Origin: an uncultured Erwinia sp.
GTDB taxonomy: Bacteria > Pseudomonadota > Gammaproteobacteria > Enterobacterales > Enterobacteriaceae
Reading direction: 5' to 3'
Assembly: GCA_945290265.1 (NCBI GenBank)
Contig: CALYQW010000015.1
Coordinates: 1 to 64,000 of the forward strand
Length of the DNA: 64,000 bases
Positions 6,413 to 47,010 of this stretch are shown here, in pieces. The position numbers were made by a program, and so were the translations under genes. Positions within the stretch are counted from its first letter, which is position 1, and every line of letters starts with the position of its first letter. The notes under the pieces were generated by a model. The model saw only the letters and a list, made by a program, of their open reading frames with translations, was not told the origin of the DNA and ran no database searches.

Positions 6413-6727
6413 TTACTGGCTGGTTTTTACGCCCTGTGGTGCATAGCCTTTATTTTGATCCGTCACCAGGCGATAGAAAGTTTCACCGGGTTTAATCATG
6501 CCCAGTGCATTACGTGCGCGCTCTTCGATCGCTTCCGAACCGCCATTTAAGTCGTCGATCTCGGCAAACAGCCGATCGTTGCGCATTTTCAGCTTCGCGT
6601 TGCTCGCCTGTTGCACTGCAACATCCTGATCCACGCGCGTATAATCGTGAATACCGTTCTTGCCCAGCCAGAGCGAATATTGCAGCCAGCCCAGCAGTAC
6701 AAGTAACAGTAAAGTAAGTTTTCCCAT
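6413..6727 (-). CDS. ftsB: Cell division protein FtsB
   Basis: Small bitopic inner-membrane protein of the FtsQBL divisome complex. From the ATG at 6727 the product begins MGKLTLLL and has 104 residues (E. coli 103): a short cytoplasmic tail, one transmembrane segment at about 4-21, a coiled coil at about 30-70 ([20 protein letters not shown]) and the conserved [14 protein letters not shown] precedes this ATG at good spacing; an in-frame start 24 bases upstream would add residues with no counterpart in E. coli. First gene of ftsB-ispD-ispF-truD. Confidence 0.95.
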
Positions 6728-6867
6728 CCCCGCCCCCTGAAAACGGCTCAATCATCCCATAACTTTGGTTATGACTCCACTCCGCCAGTAAAATAGCGCC
6801 GTTTTCTTAATTTTCAGCCGCAACCTTTTGTAACGCTGCGATGCGTTTAACCATCGCCCGTCAACGG

Positions 6868-10226: not shown

Positions 10227-11642
10227 TCAAGCCAAATTCACAACGGCGGAGTCACGTCCGGCCTGCTGCGCAGAATGTTGAAACCATGCCAGCTGCTGAT
10301 GCAGATTGACCACTTCGCCAATCACAATCAGCGCCGGCGTTGGCGCATGTTTTGCCAGCTCATCGAGCTGTTGTAACGTGCCGGTCAGTACCTGCTGCTG
10401 TTGGCGGGTGCCGCAGCCAATCACCGCCGCCGGCGTATCGGCGGCACGCCCGTGAGCAATCAGCTGGCTGGCGATATCGCCCGCTTTGGCGCTACCCATA
10501 TAAATTGCCAGGGTCTGACGCGCGCGCGCCAGTGAAGGCCAGTCGGTACCGGCGCTGTCGGCGCGGCACTGGCCGGTAATAAACAGCACGCTTTGGGCGT
10601 AATCACGATGGGTAAGCGGAATACCGGCATAGGCAGTAGCACCAGCGGCGGCGGTAATCCCGGGCACCACCTGGAACGGGATCCCGGCGGCGGCGGCGGC
10701 CTGCAGCTCTTCGCCACCGCGACCAAATATAAAGGGATCGCCGCCTTTCAGGCGCACCACCCGTTTGCCCTGCTGCGCCAGCGTGACCAGCAGCTGATTA
10801 ATCTCTTCCTGCGGCATACTGTGCGAATTTGCGCGTTTGCCTACGCAGATGCGCTCCGCATCACGACGCACTAAATCCAGGATTTCCTCGCTGACCAGAT
10901 AGTCATACAGCACTACGTCTGCCAGCTGCATCACCTGCAAACCGCGCAGGGTTAACAGGCCGCTGTCGCCCGGCCCGGCACCGACGAGGATTATCTCGCC
11001 CTGACTGGCTTCGCTGTCATCCAGCTGACGCTCCAGGGTATGACGCGCTGCCGTCAGATTGCCGGCTCCCACCTGGCTGGCAAACAGCCCGCTGAAGGCT
11101 TTTTCCCAGTAGCGGCGGCGGTCAGTCATTTTGCTAAAGCGGGCTTTGACCTTATCGCGCCACTGCCCGGCGATATCTGCCATCTGCCCCAGTGAGGCAG
11201 GCAGCAGCGTTTCCAATTTTTCACGCAGCAGGCGCGCCAGCACCGGCGCGGTGCCGCTGGAGGAGATAGCCACTACCAGCGGTGAACGGTCAACAATCGA
11301 AGGGAAAATAAAGGAGCACTTTGGCTGATCGTCCACCACGTTAGCCAGCAGATAGCGCGCAGTGGCATCCTCATAAACATGAGCATTTAGCTGTGCGTTA
11401 TCGGTGGCCGCGATCACCATAAACACCCGGTCCAGCTGCTGCGGCTGATATTCGGTTGCCAGCCACTCGATATGGTCGCTGTCGGTCAACGCTGCCAGCT
11501 CATCGCAGAGCCTGCGTGATACCACCTGAACCCGCGCCCCGGCGCGCCGCAGCAGGCTGATTTTGCGCGCCGCCACATCACCGCCGCCGACCACCAGCAC
11601 CGGCTTGTTTCTGATATCAGCAAAAAGAGGAAGATAATCCAC
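10227..11642 (-). CDS. cysG: Siroheme synthase CysG
   Basis: Multifunctional enzyme making siroheme, the cofactor of sulfite reductase CysI, from uroporphyrinogen III. The N-terminal dehydrogenase/ferrochelatase half has the NAD-binding GGGDVAARK near residue 20 and [13 protein letters not shown]; the C-terminal methyltransferase half has [14 protein letters not shown] and [19 protein letters not shown] favour the GTG at 11642 (VDYLPLF, aligned with E. coli MDHLPIF), 8 bases after AGG; a GTG at 11663 is an alternative. Its place at the head of cysDNC ties cofactor supply to sulfate reduction; in E. coli cysG lies in the nir operon. Confidence 0.93.
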
Positions 11643-28802: not shown

Positions 28803-31529
28803 ATGACTAAATACAGCCTGCGGGCACGGATGATGATCCTGATTCTGGCGCCGACGCTTTTGATTGGCTTGCTACTTTCAACATTTTTTGTGGTTAACCG
28901 TTTCAACGAATTACAGACCCAACTTACTGATGCCGGTATCAGTATTATTGAACCGCTGGCCGTTTCCGCTGAGTATGGCATGACCTATCACCGCAGCGAA
29001 TCCATACGTCATCTGGTCAGTCTGCTGCATCGCCGCCATTCCAATATCGTGCGAGCCATTTCGGTATTTGATGATCAAAATCTGTTATTTGTCACCTCTA
29101 ACTACCATCAGTCTCCCGATTTACTTCGCCTTCCTGATAATACCCCACTGACCGGACAATATCTTAAAGAGCGCAACGGTAATTCGGTGATCCTGCGTTA
29201 TCCCATCCTGCCAGAAAATTATTATCCGGATGAGGCCAATAGCGAAGGTGCGAAACCGGATAATAATCCACTCGGTTACGTGGCGATTGAACTGGATCTG
29301 CAGTCAGTACGCCTGCAGCAGTATAAAGAAGTCTTCATTTCCACCCTGTTACTGCTGTTATGTCTGTGTATTGCCATGATGTTTGCTTATCGCCTGATGC
29401 GCGATGTCACCGGCCCGATCCGTAATATGGTAAGCACCGTAGACCGTATTCGTCGCGGTCAGTTGGACAGCCGGGTGGTGGGAAATATGCTGGGCGAACT
29501 GGACGTACTGAAAAACGGTATTAACTCCATGGCCATGTCGCTGACCGCTTATCATGAAGAGATGCAGCATAATATTGATCAGGCCACTTCTGATTTACGG
29601 GAAACGCTGGAGCAGATGGAAATTCAGAACGTGGAACTGGATCTGGCTAAGAAGCGCGCCCAGGAAGCGGCACGAATTAAGTCTGAATTTCTCGCCAATA
29701 TGTCTCATGAGCTGCGTACCCCACTGAATGGCGTGATTGGCTTTACCCGACAGACCCTGAAAACCCAGTTGAATGTCACCCAGCGCGATTATCTGAATAC
29801 CATAGAACGCTCCGCCAATAACCTGCTGAGCATTATTAATGACGTGCTGGACTTCTCCAAACTGGAGGCCGGTAAGCTGGTGCTGGAAAGCATTCCTTTC
29901 CCGTTACGCGCAACGCTGGATGAAGTGGTGGTGTTACTGGCGCAGTCTGCCCATGAAAAAGGCCTGGAACTGACGCTGAATATTCAGAGTGATGTACCGG
30001 ATAATGCCATTGGTGATCCTATGCGCCTGCAGCAGATTATTGTCAATCTGCTGGGGAATGCCATCAAATTTACCGAGCATGGCAATATTGATATCCGCAT
30101 CGAAAAACGCGCCCAGAGTAATAATCGTGTCGATCTGGAAGTGCAGATCCACGATACGGGGATTGGCATTGCAGAAAAACAGCAGTCAGAACTGTTCCAG
30201 GCCTTCCGCCAGGCCGATGCCAGTATTTCCCGCCGTCATGGCGGTACCGGGTTAGGTCTGGTTATCACGCAAAAACTGGTCAATGAAATGGGGGGCGATA
30301 TTTCGTTCCACAGCCGCCTGAACCAGGGATCGACCTTCTGGTTCCATGTCAACCTGGAGCTGAATCCAAACTCGTCAAGCGATCCACATATGCTGGACTG
30401 CCTGGTCGGACAGAGTCTGGCGTATGTTGAAGCCAATACCGCTGCCGCTCAGGCGATGCTGGAAATGCTGAGCGCAACGCCACTTAAAATCAGTTACAGT
30501 CCTACCCTGCAGGAATTACCTGCGCAGAAATTTGATCTGCTTCTGTACGGTATGCCAGTGAACGGACAGTCAAATAAACCGATTGACGACCAACAATTGT
30601 CGCCGATTTTACACCGCGCAGACAGCGTGATTATGGCGCTTCCCTGCCAGATGCAGACTTATGCCGAAGATTTGAAAAAACGTGGGGTGCTGGCCTGTAT
30701 TATCAAGCCGGGTTCAATGGTGCGCCTGCTGCCATTACTGTTGGATCGCCACCCGCGTGAAAGCCTCCCGCCGCAGGTCAGAACCCGGTTACCGTTGCGG
30801 GTCATGGCAGTAGATGATAATCCGGCCAACCTTAAGCTGATTGGCGCACTGCTTGAGGAACAGGTGCAACATATTGTCTTGTGTGACAGTGGTAAAAAAG
30901 CCATTGATCAGGCGAAGCAACAGAGTCTGGATATTATCCTGATGGATATTCAGATGCCGGATATTGACGGTATCAGTGCTACCGCAGTCATTCGTACCCT
31001 GCCTCGTCATCATTCCACCCCGATTATTGCCGTGACGGCGCATGCTCTGGAGGGCGCACAGATGCGCTTAATTGATGCGGGAATGAACGAATACCTGGCG
31101 AAACCGATTGATGAGCACAAGCTGTGCCAACTGCTGGCACGCTATTCCTCTGAGAGACCGGCGGCGCCTGCTGTCCCGGTAGTGAATTTTACCTCACTCG
31201 ACTGGGAACTGGCATTGCGTCAGGCAGCCAATAAACCCGATCTGGCGCGCGACCTGTTGCAAATGCTGGTGGACTACCTGCCTGAGGTACGCCGTCTGAT
31301 TGAGCAGCATCTTGCCTCTAACGACAGTAATGCCCTGCGCGTTGTGATCCATAAACTGCATGGCAGCGCCAGTTACAGCGGCGTACCGCGGATGAAAGAC
31401 CTCTGTATGCAGCTGGAGAAAAGCCTGCTGGCAGGCAGTGATATTGCGGATATCGAACCGGAGCTGCTTGAACTGCAGGATGAAATGGATAACGTCGAAA
31501 ATCAGGCAAACCAGCTGCTGAGTCAGTAA
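28803..31529 (+). CDS. barA: Hybrid sensor histidine kinase BarA
   Basis: Tripartite sensor kinase; with response regulator UvrY it activates CsrB/CsrC sRNA synthesis. 908 residues (E. coli 918): transmembrane segments at about 11-31 and 178-197 bracket a periplasmic sensor, then HAMP, a coiled region, a kinase core with His302 ([10 protein letters not shown]), N and G boxes ([22 protein letters not shown]), a receiver with Asp715 (ILMDIQMP), and a C-terminal HPt domain with His850 (HKLHG). All phosphorelay residues are intact. Its regulatory targets, two csrB genes, lie 3-6 kb downstream on the opposite strand. Confidence 0.97.
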
Positions 31530-33213: not shown

Positions 33214-33984
33214 TTAGATAGTGTCCGCCAATGCACCATCACCAGAGGTTAACGCAGGCAGGTAAGCCAGCTGCTGCCATCCGAAGCGCCTCAGCGCACC
33301 CTGCCAGACTTCGTCCAGTCCGGCACGCAGGATCAGCGGCTCGCCGGTAACAGGATGAGTCAGGCGCAGTTCACTGGCATGCAGCATCAGACGATTAATG
33401 TCAAACTGCTCCGCCGCGTTGCGGTTTTGTTTTAGATCACCATGCTTGCTGTCACCAATAATCGGATGACGCAAATGACTCATATGGCGACGTAGCTGGT
33501 GTTTTCGTCCGGTTTGCGGCTGCATTTCTACCAGAGAATAGCGGGTGGTAGGGTAGCGTCCACCTGGCACCGGCAGTTCGACCGTTGCCAGACCGCGCCA
33601 ATGGGTGACTGCCGCTTGCGCGGCTTTATCCGGCTGACTAAGCTTATCGGCGATTTTATCCGGCTGCCAGCTCAGGGCATACTCCAGCGTCTGCTCGCCT
33701 TCCAGCCAGCCACGCACCACAGCATGATAGGTTTTCTGCAGCTGATGATGTTCAAACTGTTGTGACAGCAGGCGAGCCACCTCAGCGGACAACCCCAGCA
33801 GCAGCACCCCGGAGGTCGGACGATCGAGGCGATGTACGGTATAGACGTGCTGCCCTAACTGATCGCGCAGCGTCTGCATAATAAAGCGGGTTTCGTGGCG
33901 ATCCAGCCAGCTGCGATGCACCAGCCAGCCGGAAGGCTTATTTACCGCCACCAGCCAGCTATCCTTATGGAGTATCTCCAGCAT
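33214..33984 (-). CDS. truC: tRNA pseudouridine(65) synthase TruC
   Basis: RluA-family pseudouridine synthase modifying U65 in tRNA-Ile1 and tRNA-Asp. The catalytic aspartate is Asp54 in [19 protein letters not shown] and [10 protein letters not shown] are further family blocks. 256 residues (E. coli 260). Its ATG overlaps the yqcC stop (TGATG), so translation is coupled. Confidence 0.95.
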
Positions 33985-34310
33985 CAGCTGGCGGGCGCAA
34001 ACAGCGCGTCCAGTGCGGTCAACAGACGCAACAGCTCCATGCGCTGAGGGATATCCGCATCCAACGCTTCTTCATAATAAGGAGCAACCGCCAGCGCCGA
34101 CGGCAGCGGAGCTGAAGCATCCAGCAGTGTCTGCATACGCGGCAGGAAGACCCATTGCAACCACTGTAGTGGCGTCATGGTATCAATAAAAAAGGGTTCA
34201 GTGCTGGTAAAGGCCTGATCCTCAGGCGCAGTGGATTGCCACAGACCCGCCTGTTTAAGTAGCTGTTCAACAGCCAGCAGCAGTTCCTGAACCTGACGTT
34301 CACGGCTCAT
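33984..34310 (-). CDS. yqcC: YqcC family protein (DUF446)
   Basis: Small soluble protein of unknown function with the conserved core PFFIDTMTPLQWLQWVFLPRM and VAPYYEEAL. From the ATG at 34310 it has 108 residues (E. coli 109), with GAGG six bases upstream; a TTG four codons earlier is a weaker alternative. Overlaps truC by one base. It follows the csrB1 terminator by about 110 bp, the same neighbour relation as in E. coli. Confidence 0.9.
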   Translation of the reverse strand: MSRERQVQELLLAVEQLLKQAGLWQSTAPEDQAFTSTEPFFIDTMTPLQWLQWVFLPRMQTLLDASAPLPSALAVAPYYEEALDADIPQRMELLRLLTALDALFAPAS

Positions 34311-34423
34311 GCTCCACCTCAATTGTTATTCAGTAAAAAGGGCGCAAAGCATACCCCGTTCATCGCTGCCGCTGCAACTGATGGCACCCTAAGTATGGAG
34401 GGTGCATCTGACCGAAAAAAAAA

Positions 34424-34729
34424 TACAAAAAAAGGAGCACTGTAAATTACAGTGCTCCCGGTTCGTTTGCAGCTATCCTGCTACGATTTTGCTCCCTGCC
34501 TCATCCCTGATAACTCTTCCACACGCTATCCTGCGCAAATGTCTTCCTGACATTGATCCTTAGCTTCCTTACTCGCCATCATCCTGATTGGCTATCGTTC
34601 TCCATCCTGAAGGTGTCCTTATTTTCATCCTTGAAATCTGACTTATCACATCAAACTGTTTTCAATTGTACCGGCACATCATCCTGATGAAATCCAGCAA
34701 TGGATAAAGCAATTTGTCTCTTTAAGTTA
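34424..34729 (-). ncRNA. csrB: CsrB-type CsrA-sequestering sRNA, copy 1
   Basis: About 300-nt RNA read on the minus strand. By my count 16 GGA motifs, many as CAGGATG or AAGGA in short hairpins, the CsrA-binding signature. The 3' part (GAGGCAGGGAGC, AACGAACCGGGAGCACTGT) matches E. coli CsrB, ending in a GGAGCACTGTA/TACAGTGCTCC stem (34434-34458) and a U run. Position between yqcC and syd is the E. coli csrB locus. It titrates CsrA, relieving repression of biofilm, motility and carbon-storage mRNAs; BarA/UvrY should activate it. The 5' end is set from the predicted promoter. Confidence 0.9.
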
Positions 34730-34735
34730 AGGGAG

Positions 34736-34763
34736 ATTATGCCTGATTACTGCGGGCTAACAA
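34736..34763 (-). promoter_or_regulatory. Predicted promoter of csrB copy 1
   Basis: Minus-strand TTGTTA (34763-34758), 16-bp spacer, CATAAT (34741-34736). The same arrangement with the same spacing and a shared TCAGGCA block precedes copy 2, which supports both. An upstream GTGTGAGATATTAC (minus strand, about 34916-34903) resembles half of the UvrY box known for E. coli csrB. Confidence 0.6.
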
Positions 34764-34993
34764 ACTCCTGACAGCGACTTATTTTGATCTCTGAAAATAC
34801 GATTTTTTTTTGAATAATTAATATGATGAGAAATAATAATTTTTTCATAAATGCCAGATAAAGGCGCGTGATAAAGAAATTGATGTCTTACGTTTAGTGA
34901 AGGTAATATCTCACACCACCTTAAGTTTAAATCGCAGCCTTCGCAAACGTTGCCCGCGACAAAGCAATAATTTCAGGGTATGCGGCGGGGGAT

Positions 34994-35292
34994 AAAAAAA
35001 GGGAGCACTGTATGTACAGTGCTCCCGGTTCGTTTGCAGCTTTCCGGCTACGTTAATGCTCCCTGCCTCATCCATGAAAACTCGCCCAAGTGCCATCCTG
35101 AGCTAATGCCTTCCTGACATCATATCCCTGGTTTCCTTACCCACCATTATCCTTAATGGCTCTCATTCTCCGTCCTGGAGGTGTCCTGTGCTTCATCCTG
35201 AAATTGGTATTATCGAATAAGTAGGTTTTGTTATTCAGCGGCATCATCCTGACATCATGCTGGCTAATGCAAATACCACTTACTTCGTGATT
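34994..35292 (-). ncRNA. csrB: CsrB-type CsrA-sequestering sRNA, copy 2
   Basis: Second full CsrB-like gene, head to tail with copy 1. About 14 GGA motifs in the same order (CAGGACACC, CAGGACGGAG, AAGGATAATGG, CAGGAAGG), the same GAGGCAGGGAGC and AACGAACCGGGAGCACTGT block, and a GGGAGCACTGT/ACAGTGCTCCC terminator (35001-35026) followed by seven U. It differs from copy 1 throughout but aligns along its whole length, so it is an old tandem duplication rather than an assembly artefact. Role as for copy 1. The two copies are separated by about 230 bp of AT-rich DNA. Confidence 0.9.
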
Positions 35293-35298
35293 GCCGAG

Positions 35299-35326
35299 AT
35301 CTTGCCTGAATACATTCATCAAACAA
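35299..35326 (-). promoter_or_regulatory. Predicted promoter of csrB copy 2
   Basis: Minus-strand TTGTTT (35326-35321), 16-bp spacer, CAAGAT (35304-35299). The -10 is weaker than that of copy 1 (CATAAT), so basal expression may be lower and more dependent on an activator. Confidence 0.5.
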
Positions 35327-35436
35327 GCGGGTTTCAGACGCCGTTGTTTTCGTTCGGAGTGCCGGAATAAAACAGGCTTATTTCAATCTCATGATAAATA
35401 TAAATTCATTATTTAATCACCGCGTTAAATTTACTT

Positions 35437-35457
35437 CACAAGATGAAATATCTTACG
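35437..35457. promoter_or_regulatory. Candidate UvrY (GacA-type) box upstream of csrB copy 2
   Basis: CACAAGAT and ATCTTACG form an imperfect inverted repeat about 155 bp before the predicted start of copy 2, close to the distance of the UvrY site from E. coli csrB. It resembles the TGTRAG...CTTACA pattern but with a different spacer. Tentative. Confidence 0.25.
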
Positions 35458-35501
35458 AAAACCATAAGCAATATCCCACAAACCATAAGGTAAATATTGT
35501 A

Positions 35502-36059
35502 TTAATCAGGCATACAGGGTTGCAGATGAGTGAGAAAGTGTGCCAGAGAAGGGGCAAGAACCTGCCGTCCGGCAGTGCCAAGAGTGGTGAGGATAACCTC
35601 TCCGCTGAGATTACAGACTGAGATAATATCTGAATCGCTATCCGTGGTCGCAATAAACAAATCCGGGGTACGCTTTAACCGACGCTGCATCACTAAATGG
35701 CCGATCAGGTTCTCCTGAACTCGCGCAAAATCCTCTTCACTCCATACCTGCACTAATGTCAGGGCGATACCGTCCCAGGTTGCGCTCATATCTCCGGCAA
35801 ACTGGGTAGTGTAAAACGCCGTCAGCGCAGGTTGGAGACGAATATCCAGCGCCCGTTCAACCGCCTGCAAATTTTGCGCCAGAGTAAAAGACTGCGGCTG
35901 CCACCAGACTTCTTCTTTATCTGCGTGCGATGCCAGAATACAAGGAGAAGGCATGCCATAAAGATCCTGACTGGCTGGCGCATGACCGCGCTGCTGCTGC
36001 CATAAATCACAGTATCGGTGGGTAATGTCGTTCAGAGCACTGACGGTTTCTGCAATCAT
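35502..36059 (-). CDS. syd: SecY-interacting protein Syd
   Basis: Cytosolic protein that binds SecY and is thought to check or remove faulty translocons. 185 residues (E. coli 181). Conserved stretches [38 protein letters not shown] and [21 protein letters not shown] match E. coli Syd almost end to end. Divergent from queF; upstream of csrB2 on the same strand, as in E. coli. Confidence 0.95.
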
Positions 36060-42030: not shown

Positions 42031-42225
42031 ACTTCCCGAGCCGGAACGAAAAGTACTGAAAAATGAGGCGGATTGCGGAGTTTATCGGGACTTTTGGCTT
42101 GTGGTCGTAATGTTGTGTTTGCAATTGATCTGAGGATTTTCGGGTCCGGTAGCCAGGCTACCATAATTTACAGAGTTATCCTGTCCATAATATTTTTAGC
42201 ACCGCAATTTGCGGTGCTTTTTTTT
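42031..42225 (+). ncRNA. gcvB: GcvB small regulatory RNA
   Basis: Hfq-dependent sRNA that represses many amino-acid and peptide transporter mRNAs. The 5' end ACTTCC-GAGCCGGAACGAAAAGT, the GU-rich R1 seed (AATGTTGTGTTTGCAATTG) and the 3' terminator GCACCGCAATTTGCGGTGC with eight U match E. coli GcvB. The R1 region is shorter than in E. coli, which has an extra GTTGT repeat. About 195 nt. Divergent from gcvA, and ends 8 bp before the convergent ygdI. Confidence 0.93.

Positions 42226-46677: not shown

Positions 46678-47010
<333 letters not shown>

Follow-up and report, generated by a model that had tools for sequence, protein, structure and literature searches.

The window analysed here, a 64,000-nucleotide stretch from the draft genome of an uncultured Erwinia sp., carries two csrB genes at the position where E. 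coli K-12 has a single one, between yqcC and syd. A covariance-model search of the window with the Rfam CsrB family (RF00018) returned two full-length minus-strand matches covering model positions 1-356, one at 35274-34991 with 176.2 bits (copy c1) and one at 34709-34423 with 156.2 bits (copy c2), both above the gathering score of 71 bits, and in cmscan CsrB rather than CsrC (RF00084) was retained as the best model for each. The copies lie head to tail between their two neighbours, 281 bp apart by the Rfam ends, with each transcript start predicted from where the annotated 5' end of E. coli csrB aligns:

35502..36059, minus strand: syd, upstream neighbour (NCBIfam equivalog, 255.8 bits; Pfam Syd)
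34991..35291, minus strand: csrB copy c1, syd-proximal, RF00018 match, from predicted start to Rfam end
34423..34728, minus strand: csrB copy c2, yqcC-proximal, RF00018 match, from predicted start to Rfam end
33984..34322, minus strand: yqcC, downstream neighbour (Pfam DUF446, 116.2 bits)

This confirms two real csrB genes in tandem, as the original prediction had proposed from the letters of the DNA (its copy 1 is c2 here and its copy 2 is c1): the Rfam model that it named gives two matches at the locus, the contrast with the single csrB of E. coli holds for K-12, and its estimate of 14-16 GGA motifs per copy agrees with our counts of 14 in c1 and 16 in c2. The 3' block that it took as common to both copies is indeed found in each, yet is also frequent in single-copy relatives. 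The copies are identical at 209 of 283 positions (73.9%, a divergence of 26%). They resemble the single-copy csrB genes (RF00018) of E. coli and Erwinia in their place between yqcC and syd, in their GGA hairpins and terminator, and in the layout of UvrY, IHF, -35 and -10 sites; they differ from them in that two copies share the locus and a third lies elsewhere, in having fewer GGA motifs per copy and in a degraded UvrY site. Other RNA genes of the window are an ordinary GcvB small RNA (42031-42225, plus strand, 98.8 bits) and three tandem tRNA-Met (CAU) genes 128 bp apart (46678-47010, plus strand).

Each copy is preceded by a control region of its own. In relatives of the genus this region holds a UvrY palindrome, followed after 5 bp by a second half-site, and then an IHF-like site and the -35/-10 pair. 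E. coli is reported to share this layout (PMC4682653), and it has been noted in E. amylovora (PMC5109040). Alignment with these relatives places the corresponding elements of both copies, all on the minus strand, as follows:

35463..35480, minus strand: degraded UvrY palindrome of c1, TGTGGGATATTGCTTATG, 7.0 bits, 154 bp to the -35
35445..35457, minus strand: second UvrY-type half-site of c1, CGTAAGATATTTC
35384..35398, minus strand: predicted IHF-like site of c1, in the alignment at the place conserved among relatives
35321..35326, minus strand: -35 of c1, TTGTTT (alignment with 36 relatives)
35299..35304, minus strand: -10 of c1, CAAGAT (alignment with 36 relatives)
34898..34915, minus strand: degraded UvrY palindrome of c2, TGTGAGATATTACCTTCA, 8.2 bits, 152 bp to the -35
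34880..34892, minus strand: second UvrY-type half-site of c2, CGTAAGACATCAA
34819..34833, minus strand: predicted IHF-like site of c2
34758..34763, minus strand: -35 of c2, TTGTTA (alignment with relatives and consensus scan)
34736..34741, minus strand: -10 of c2, CATAAT (alignment with relatives and consensus scan)

The two hexamer pairs, TTGTTT-16-CAAGAT at 35326-35299 and TTGTTA-16-CATAAT at 34763-34736, share the pattern TTGTTW-16-CANNAT, and the predicted promoter for each copy with a common 16-bp spacing stands, on the strength of the alignment with relatives and not of a consensus scan. A plain consensus scan picks out the c2 promoter (9/12) and misses that of c1, and the promoter-like sites it finds are no commoner than in shuffled sequence (3 vs 2.8); both promoters thus rest on the comparison with relatives. 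The distance from the start of the UvrY palindrome to the -35 is 152-154 bp in all 36 relatives, the same range in which c1 (154) and c2 (152) fall. Outside these motifs, the regions upstream of c1 and c2 are 48.4% alike, within what shuffled sequences give (mean 44.5, highest 55.6, n=60), so that the case for a common origin of the control regions is built on the order and spacing of their motifs; the lost likeness in between fits an absence of selection there.

The transcribed parts of the two genes have diverged in a manner that preserves the motifs expected to matter for CsrA binding. When the last ~40 nt are set aside, 13 of 13 GGA motifs of c1 are still GGA in c2, whereas of the other trinucleotides 93 of 246 are kept (p=6e-6), and in the reverse direction 13 of 15 GGA motifs of c2 are kept in c1, against 92 of 249 (p=2e-4); over the whole length the motifs of c1 are kept in c2 without exception (14/14). 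Comparison with seven of the 36 single-copy relatives shows the same tendency, with GGA kept above the rest of the sequence in 12/13 down to 8/13 cases for c1 and in 14/15 down to 8/15 for c2. Both RNAs are predicted to fold better than dinucleotide shuffles (z of -3.0 for c1 and -2.9 for c2), and 5 GGA motifs of c1 and 6 of c2 fall within hairpin loops of the predicted fold. A terminator scan, in which terminators outnumber those of shuffled sequence (5 vs 1.1), bears out a separate end for each copy:

35001..35026, minus strand: terminator hairpin of c1, strong, 11 pairs with a T tract
34433..34459, minus strand: terminator hairpin of c2

Both copies consequently look functional, and the view that they diverged and were both kept is borne out by motifs that persist at 26% divergence. 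By analogy with the CsrB family, their RNAs would act in CsrA titration.

In a search of 37 genomes of the genus, each of the 36 others has one csrB above the cut-off. A maximum-likelihood tree built from 39 csrB sequences groups c1, c2 and a third copy found elsewhere in the genome (c3, trimmed to its last 270 nt for this tree) in one clade (96/86), with c1 tentatively placed beside c3 (98/85): the branches of this tree are long, and a tree pairing c1 with c2 is not rejected (p-AU 0.137). One inserted base (GATGAGGCAGGG) is common to c1, c2 and c3 and occurs in none of the 36 relatives. Together, the clade and this private insertion support a common origin of c1 and c2 as tandem siblings and place the amplification of csrB in this lineage, after its split from the compared relatives; they also disfavour a derivation of the copies from different sources. 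The identity of c2 to the csrB of the nearest compared relative is 71%, which leaves c2 little closer to c1 than to that gene, in keeping with the earlier view of an old duplication instead of a recent one or an echo of assembly; this divergence and the unique flanks rule against a recent or artefactual event. Relative to the trend of csrB distance on Syd distance, mean residuals are 0.061 (c1), 0.052 (c2) and 0.032 (c3), or 1.2, 1.05 and 0.6 pairwise standard deviations, with 0.051 for the highest relative; c1 and c2, slightly above that value, may be modestly fast-evolving.

The count of two was right for the locus and too low for the genome, where the third copy had been missed. The source assembly (3.44 Mb in 62 contigs, 98% complete) holds a third csrB above the cut-off on another contig, C53, with an RF00018 match at 10418-10749 on the minus strand (168.2 bits):

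C53 (L036), 10418-10799, minus strand: extent of c3, cut by the contig end

Within the 382 nt available, c3 contains 26 GGA motifs and a 119-bp internal tandem repeat of which 2.3 units are visible. Its 5' end and promoter are absent from the assembly; when the genome was searched with c3, and with c1's promoter and 5' half, only C53 and the contig of the window, C15, gave matches. The gene adjoins an open reading frame and then betT; that frame has no Pfam or NCBIfam family, and at E <= 1e-20 none of the 36 relatives matches it. The same contig also carries an ordinary TPP riboswitch (6616-6735, minus strand, 65.4 bits).

From their predicted starts, the transcripts of c1 and c2 would be 301 nt with 14 GGA motifs and 306 nt with 16, compared with 290-458 nt (median 323) and 15-33 GGA motifs (median 21) for the csrB of the 36 relatives. 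The longest of these, 458 nt with 31 GGA motifs in G002, comes close to the values published for E. amylovora (455 nt, 31 GGA; PMC5109040). By these counts c1 and c2 are each, in prediction, a small sponge, and the CsrB-type RNAs of this genome jointly hold at least 56 GGA motifs (14, 16 and at least 26), where the median of the single-copy relatives is 21.

The original prediction placed both sponges under one sensor, BarA. A complete gene for this sensor kinase lies in the window:

28803..31529, plus strand: barA (NCBIfam equivalog BarA, 1469 bits; kinase, receiver and Hpt domains)

The proximity of csrB to barA is no evidence for control by BarA. The layout of the two control regions does make BarA/UvrY control of both copies plausible; the one-sensor reading is nevertheless the weakest part of the proposal, because c1 and c2 each have a degraded UvrY site. 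Scored with a matrix built from same-strand sites, the sites of c1 and c2 reach 7.0 and 8.2 bits, against 21.6-31.9 for the relatives scored leave-one-out. By plain matches the gap is smaller than by weighted score (12/18 and 13/18, against 14-18 of 18). With an earlier matrix, the scores of 3.8 (c1) and 10.8 (c2) were reached by 22 and 5 of 500 shuffles, which makes the remnants weakly above chance by sequence; they gain weight from their position. The half-site TGTGAGATATT of c2 may still work, since a half-palindrome serves csrC in E. coli (PMC4682653).

UvrY of this genome is 87% identical to that of E. coli. Several other ideas were considered. An altered UvrY specificity finds no support: in an alignment that covered this genome, E. 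coli and 17 of the 36 relatives, the DNA-binding region of UvrY is unchanged save for one Q-to-K substitution at a position also variable among relatives. Extra CsrA proteins as the cause of extra sponges are likewise rejected, the genome having one CsrA gene. A csrC candidate lies apart from the csrB copies, on contig C12, and scores 27.6 bits, below the cut-off of 61 that is reached in one of 37 genomes (G035 has no match); it speaks neither for nor against a third decayed promoter, its best UvrY site scoring -7.3 against -10.7 to 17.6 in the 30 of 36 relatives examined.

We consider it probable that c1 and c2 are two functional csrB genes that arose by tandem duplication in this lineage and that their RNAs add up as CsrA sponges. 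The duplication would have copied csrB along with its roughly 190-bp control region; each copy would be transcribed separately from its own promoter, end at its own terminator and bind CsrA through GGA hairpins. The decay of the UvrY site in both copies beside an unchanged UvrY DNA-binding region suggests that each promoter could be activated less strongly, or more constitutively, with copy number and the enlarged c3 carrying more of the burden than sensor input, a further step on which we regard the odds as about even.

Among the alternatives, one in which both copies are functional and have been kept for different inputs or timing fares best and is still improbable. The two promoters are indeed unlike in their -10, their UvrY site and the intervening sequence, with a weaker -10 in c1 and a better one together with a csrC-like half-site in c2, and csrB1 of Vibrio tasmaniensis is reported to be expressed independently of VarS/VarA (PMC6262261); yet c1 and c2 keep the same order and spacing of sites and the same weakened site, and the present sequence evidence gives no sign of different inputs for the two. 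That one copy is a decaying relic, its RNA no longer made or no longer binding CsrA, would accord with the low GGA counts (14 and 16, where the 36 relatives have a median of 21 and a range of 15-33), the weak UvrY sites of both copies and the unusual -10 of c1 (CAAGAT). We judge this decidedly unlikely, as GGA motifs, terminator, hexamers and spacing are preserved in both copies at 26% divergence. Read-through past the c1 terminator into a composite RNA over both copies has a precedent in PrrH, which spans prrF1-prrF2 in Pseudomonas aeruginosa (PMC4211561), and would be favoured by the head-to-tail arrangement at a distance of 281 bp; the strength of that terminator (11 pairs and a T tract) makes it very improbable. 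An assembly artefact or contamination, conceivable for a draft genome in 62 contigs, is scarcely credible: the copies sit together on a single 73.7-kb contig, flanked by the usual neighbours, they have diverged at 26% of positions, and they have a private insertion in common with c3.

Tandem csrB genes also occur outside this genus. With stricter filters, csrB lies above the cut-off in at least 243 of 392 genomes of the family, this one included, and the re-examination covered 120 genomes with two or more matches, with G394, G422 and single-match genomes set aside. Besides the present genome, tandem arrays were found in four other genera: G060 and G086 with two copies (L131 and L128), G084 and G106 with three (L129 and L130). 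These arrays resemble the c1-c2 pair, in that complete csrB genes follow one another in tandem and UvrY-like sites precede them; syd lies near the upstream side of each array, and yqcC is ~1.6 kb away in G060. They differ in that their UvrY palindromes are, by eye, better preserved. Identity within the arrays is 99.4% in G086 and G060, 97.4-97.9% in G106 and 85.6-96.6% in G084, which makes c1 and c2, at 73.9%, the most diverged pair among the arrays examined. A crude search of 80 named Syd loci for the 3' block gave more than one match in seven, two of which (L071 and L102) have one csrB each by eye.

Duplicated regulators of this kind are known elsewhere. In Vibrionaceae, csrB is reported to be duplicated as csrB2/csrB3 in Aliivibrio salmonicida (a species that the paper in one place calls Aeromonas), where the new copy adjoins the old one as here, and as csrB3/csrB4 in Vibrio tasmaniensis (PMC6262261). 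The family and gene neighbourhoods differ from those of c1 and c2, and multiple copies are the rule in Vibrio and the exception in this genus. The tandem rsmX-1/rsmX-2 of Pseudomonas brassicacearum, described as CsrA/RsmA-titrating RNAs with ~75% identity, resemble c1 and c2 in arrangement and divergence; unlike them they are short (~110 nt), and rsmX-2 is reported as exclusively GacA-dependent (PMC7911923), whereas the activator sites of c1 and c2 are weak. A 2014 review lists Csr/Rsm siblings as distal (PMC4211561), and a 2025 paper describes three Csr RNAs in Pseudoalteromonas (PMC11882849). Among the open full-text literature matches listed, we recognised no report of tandem csrB in Enterobacteriaceae. 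The present locus, whose promoter history is unusual, is another case of an arrangement that Aliivibrio and Pseudomonas also show.

CsrB governs how much of the global regulator CsrA is free. A genome with three diverged csrB genes and worn activator sites, set beside 36 single-copy relatives, lends itself to the question whether sponge dosage can replace sensor input, and the arrays in other genera indicate that csrB copy number is labile and should not be assumed to be one in Enterobacteriaceae. A bolder reading, which we offer tentatively and hold to be possible but doubtful, is that the Csr switch has been rebuilt in this lineage, with csrB expanded to three copies, one bearing a repeating GGA module, UvrY sites decayed at both assembled promoters and the level set largely by copy number; tandem arrays and module repeats would, more widely, be a recurrent, so far undescribed, way of tuning CsrA titration in Enterobacteriaceae.

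Two further genomes carry other arrangements. G149 has two full csrB genes that lie apart, one close to syd and the other to yqcC (L132 2053-2348 and L133 2045-2918), plus a partial third, with short internal repeats in the 5' part; the arrangement looks like an array broken up by rearrangement, and a putative transposase-like stretch, judged by eye, lies alongside. In G215 (L134, about 2050-2640), two adjoining matches read as one csrB of ~584 nt with 43 GGA motifs, apparently lengthened through internal module repeats.
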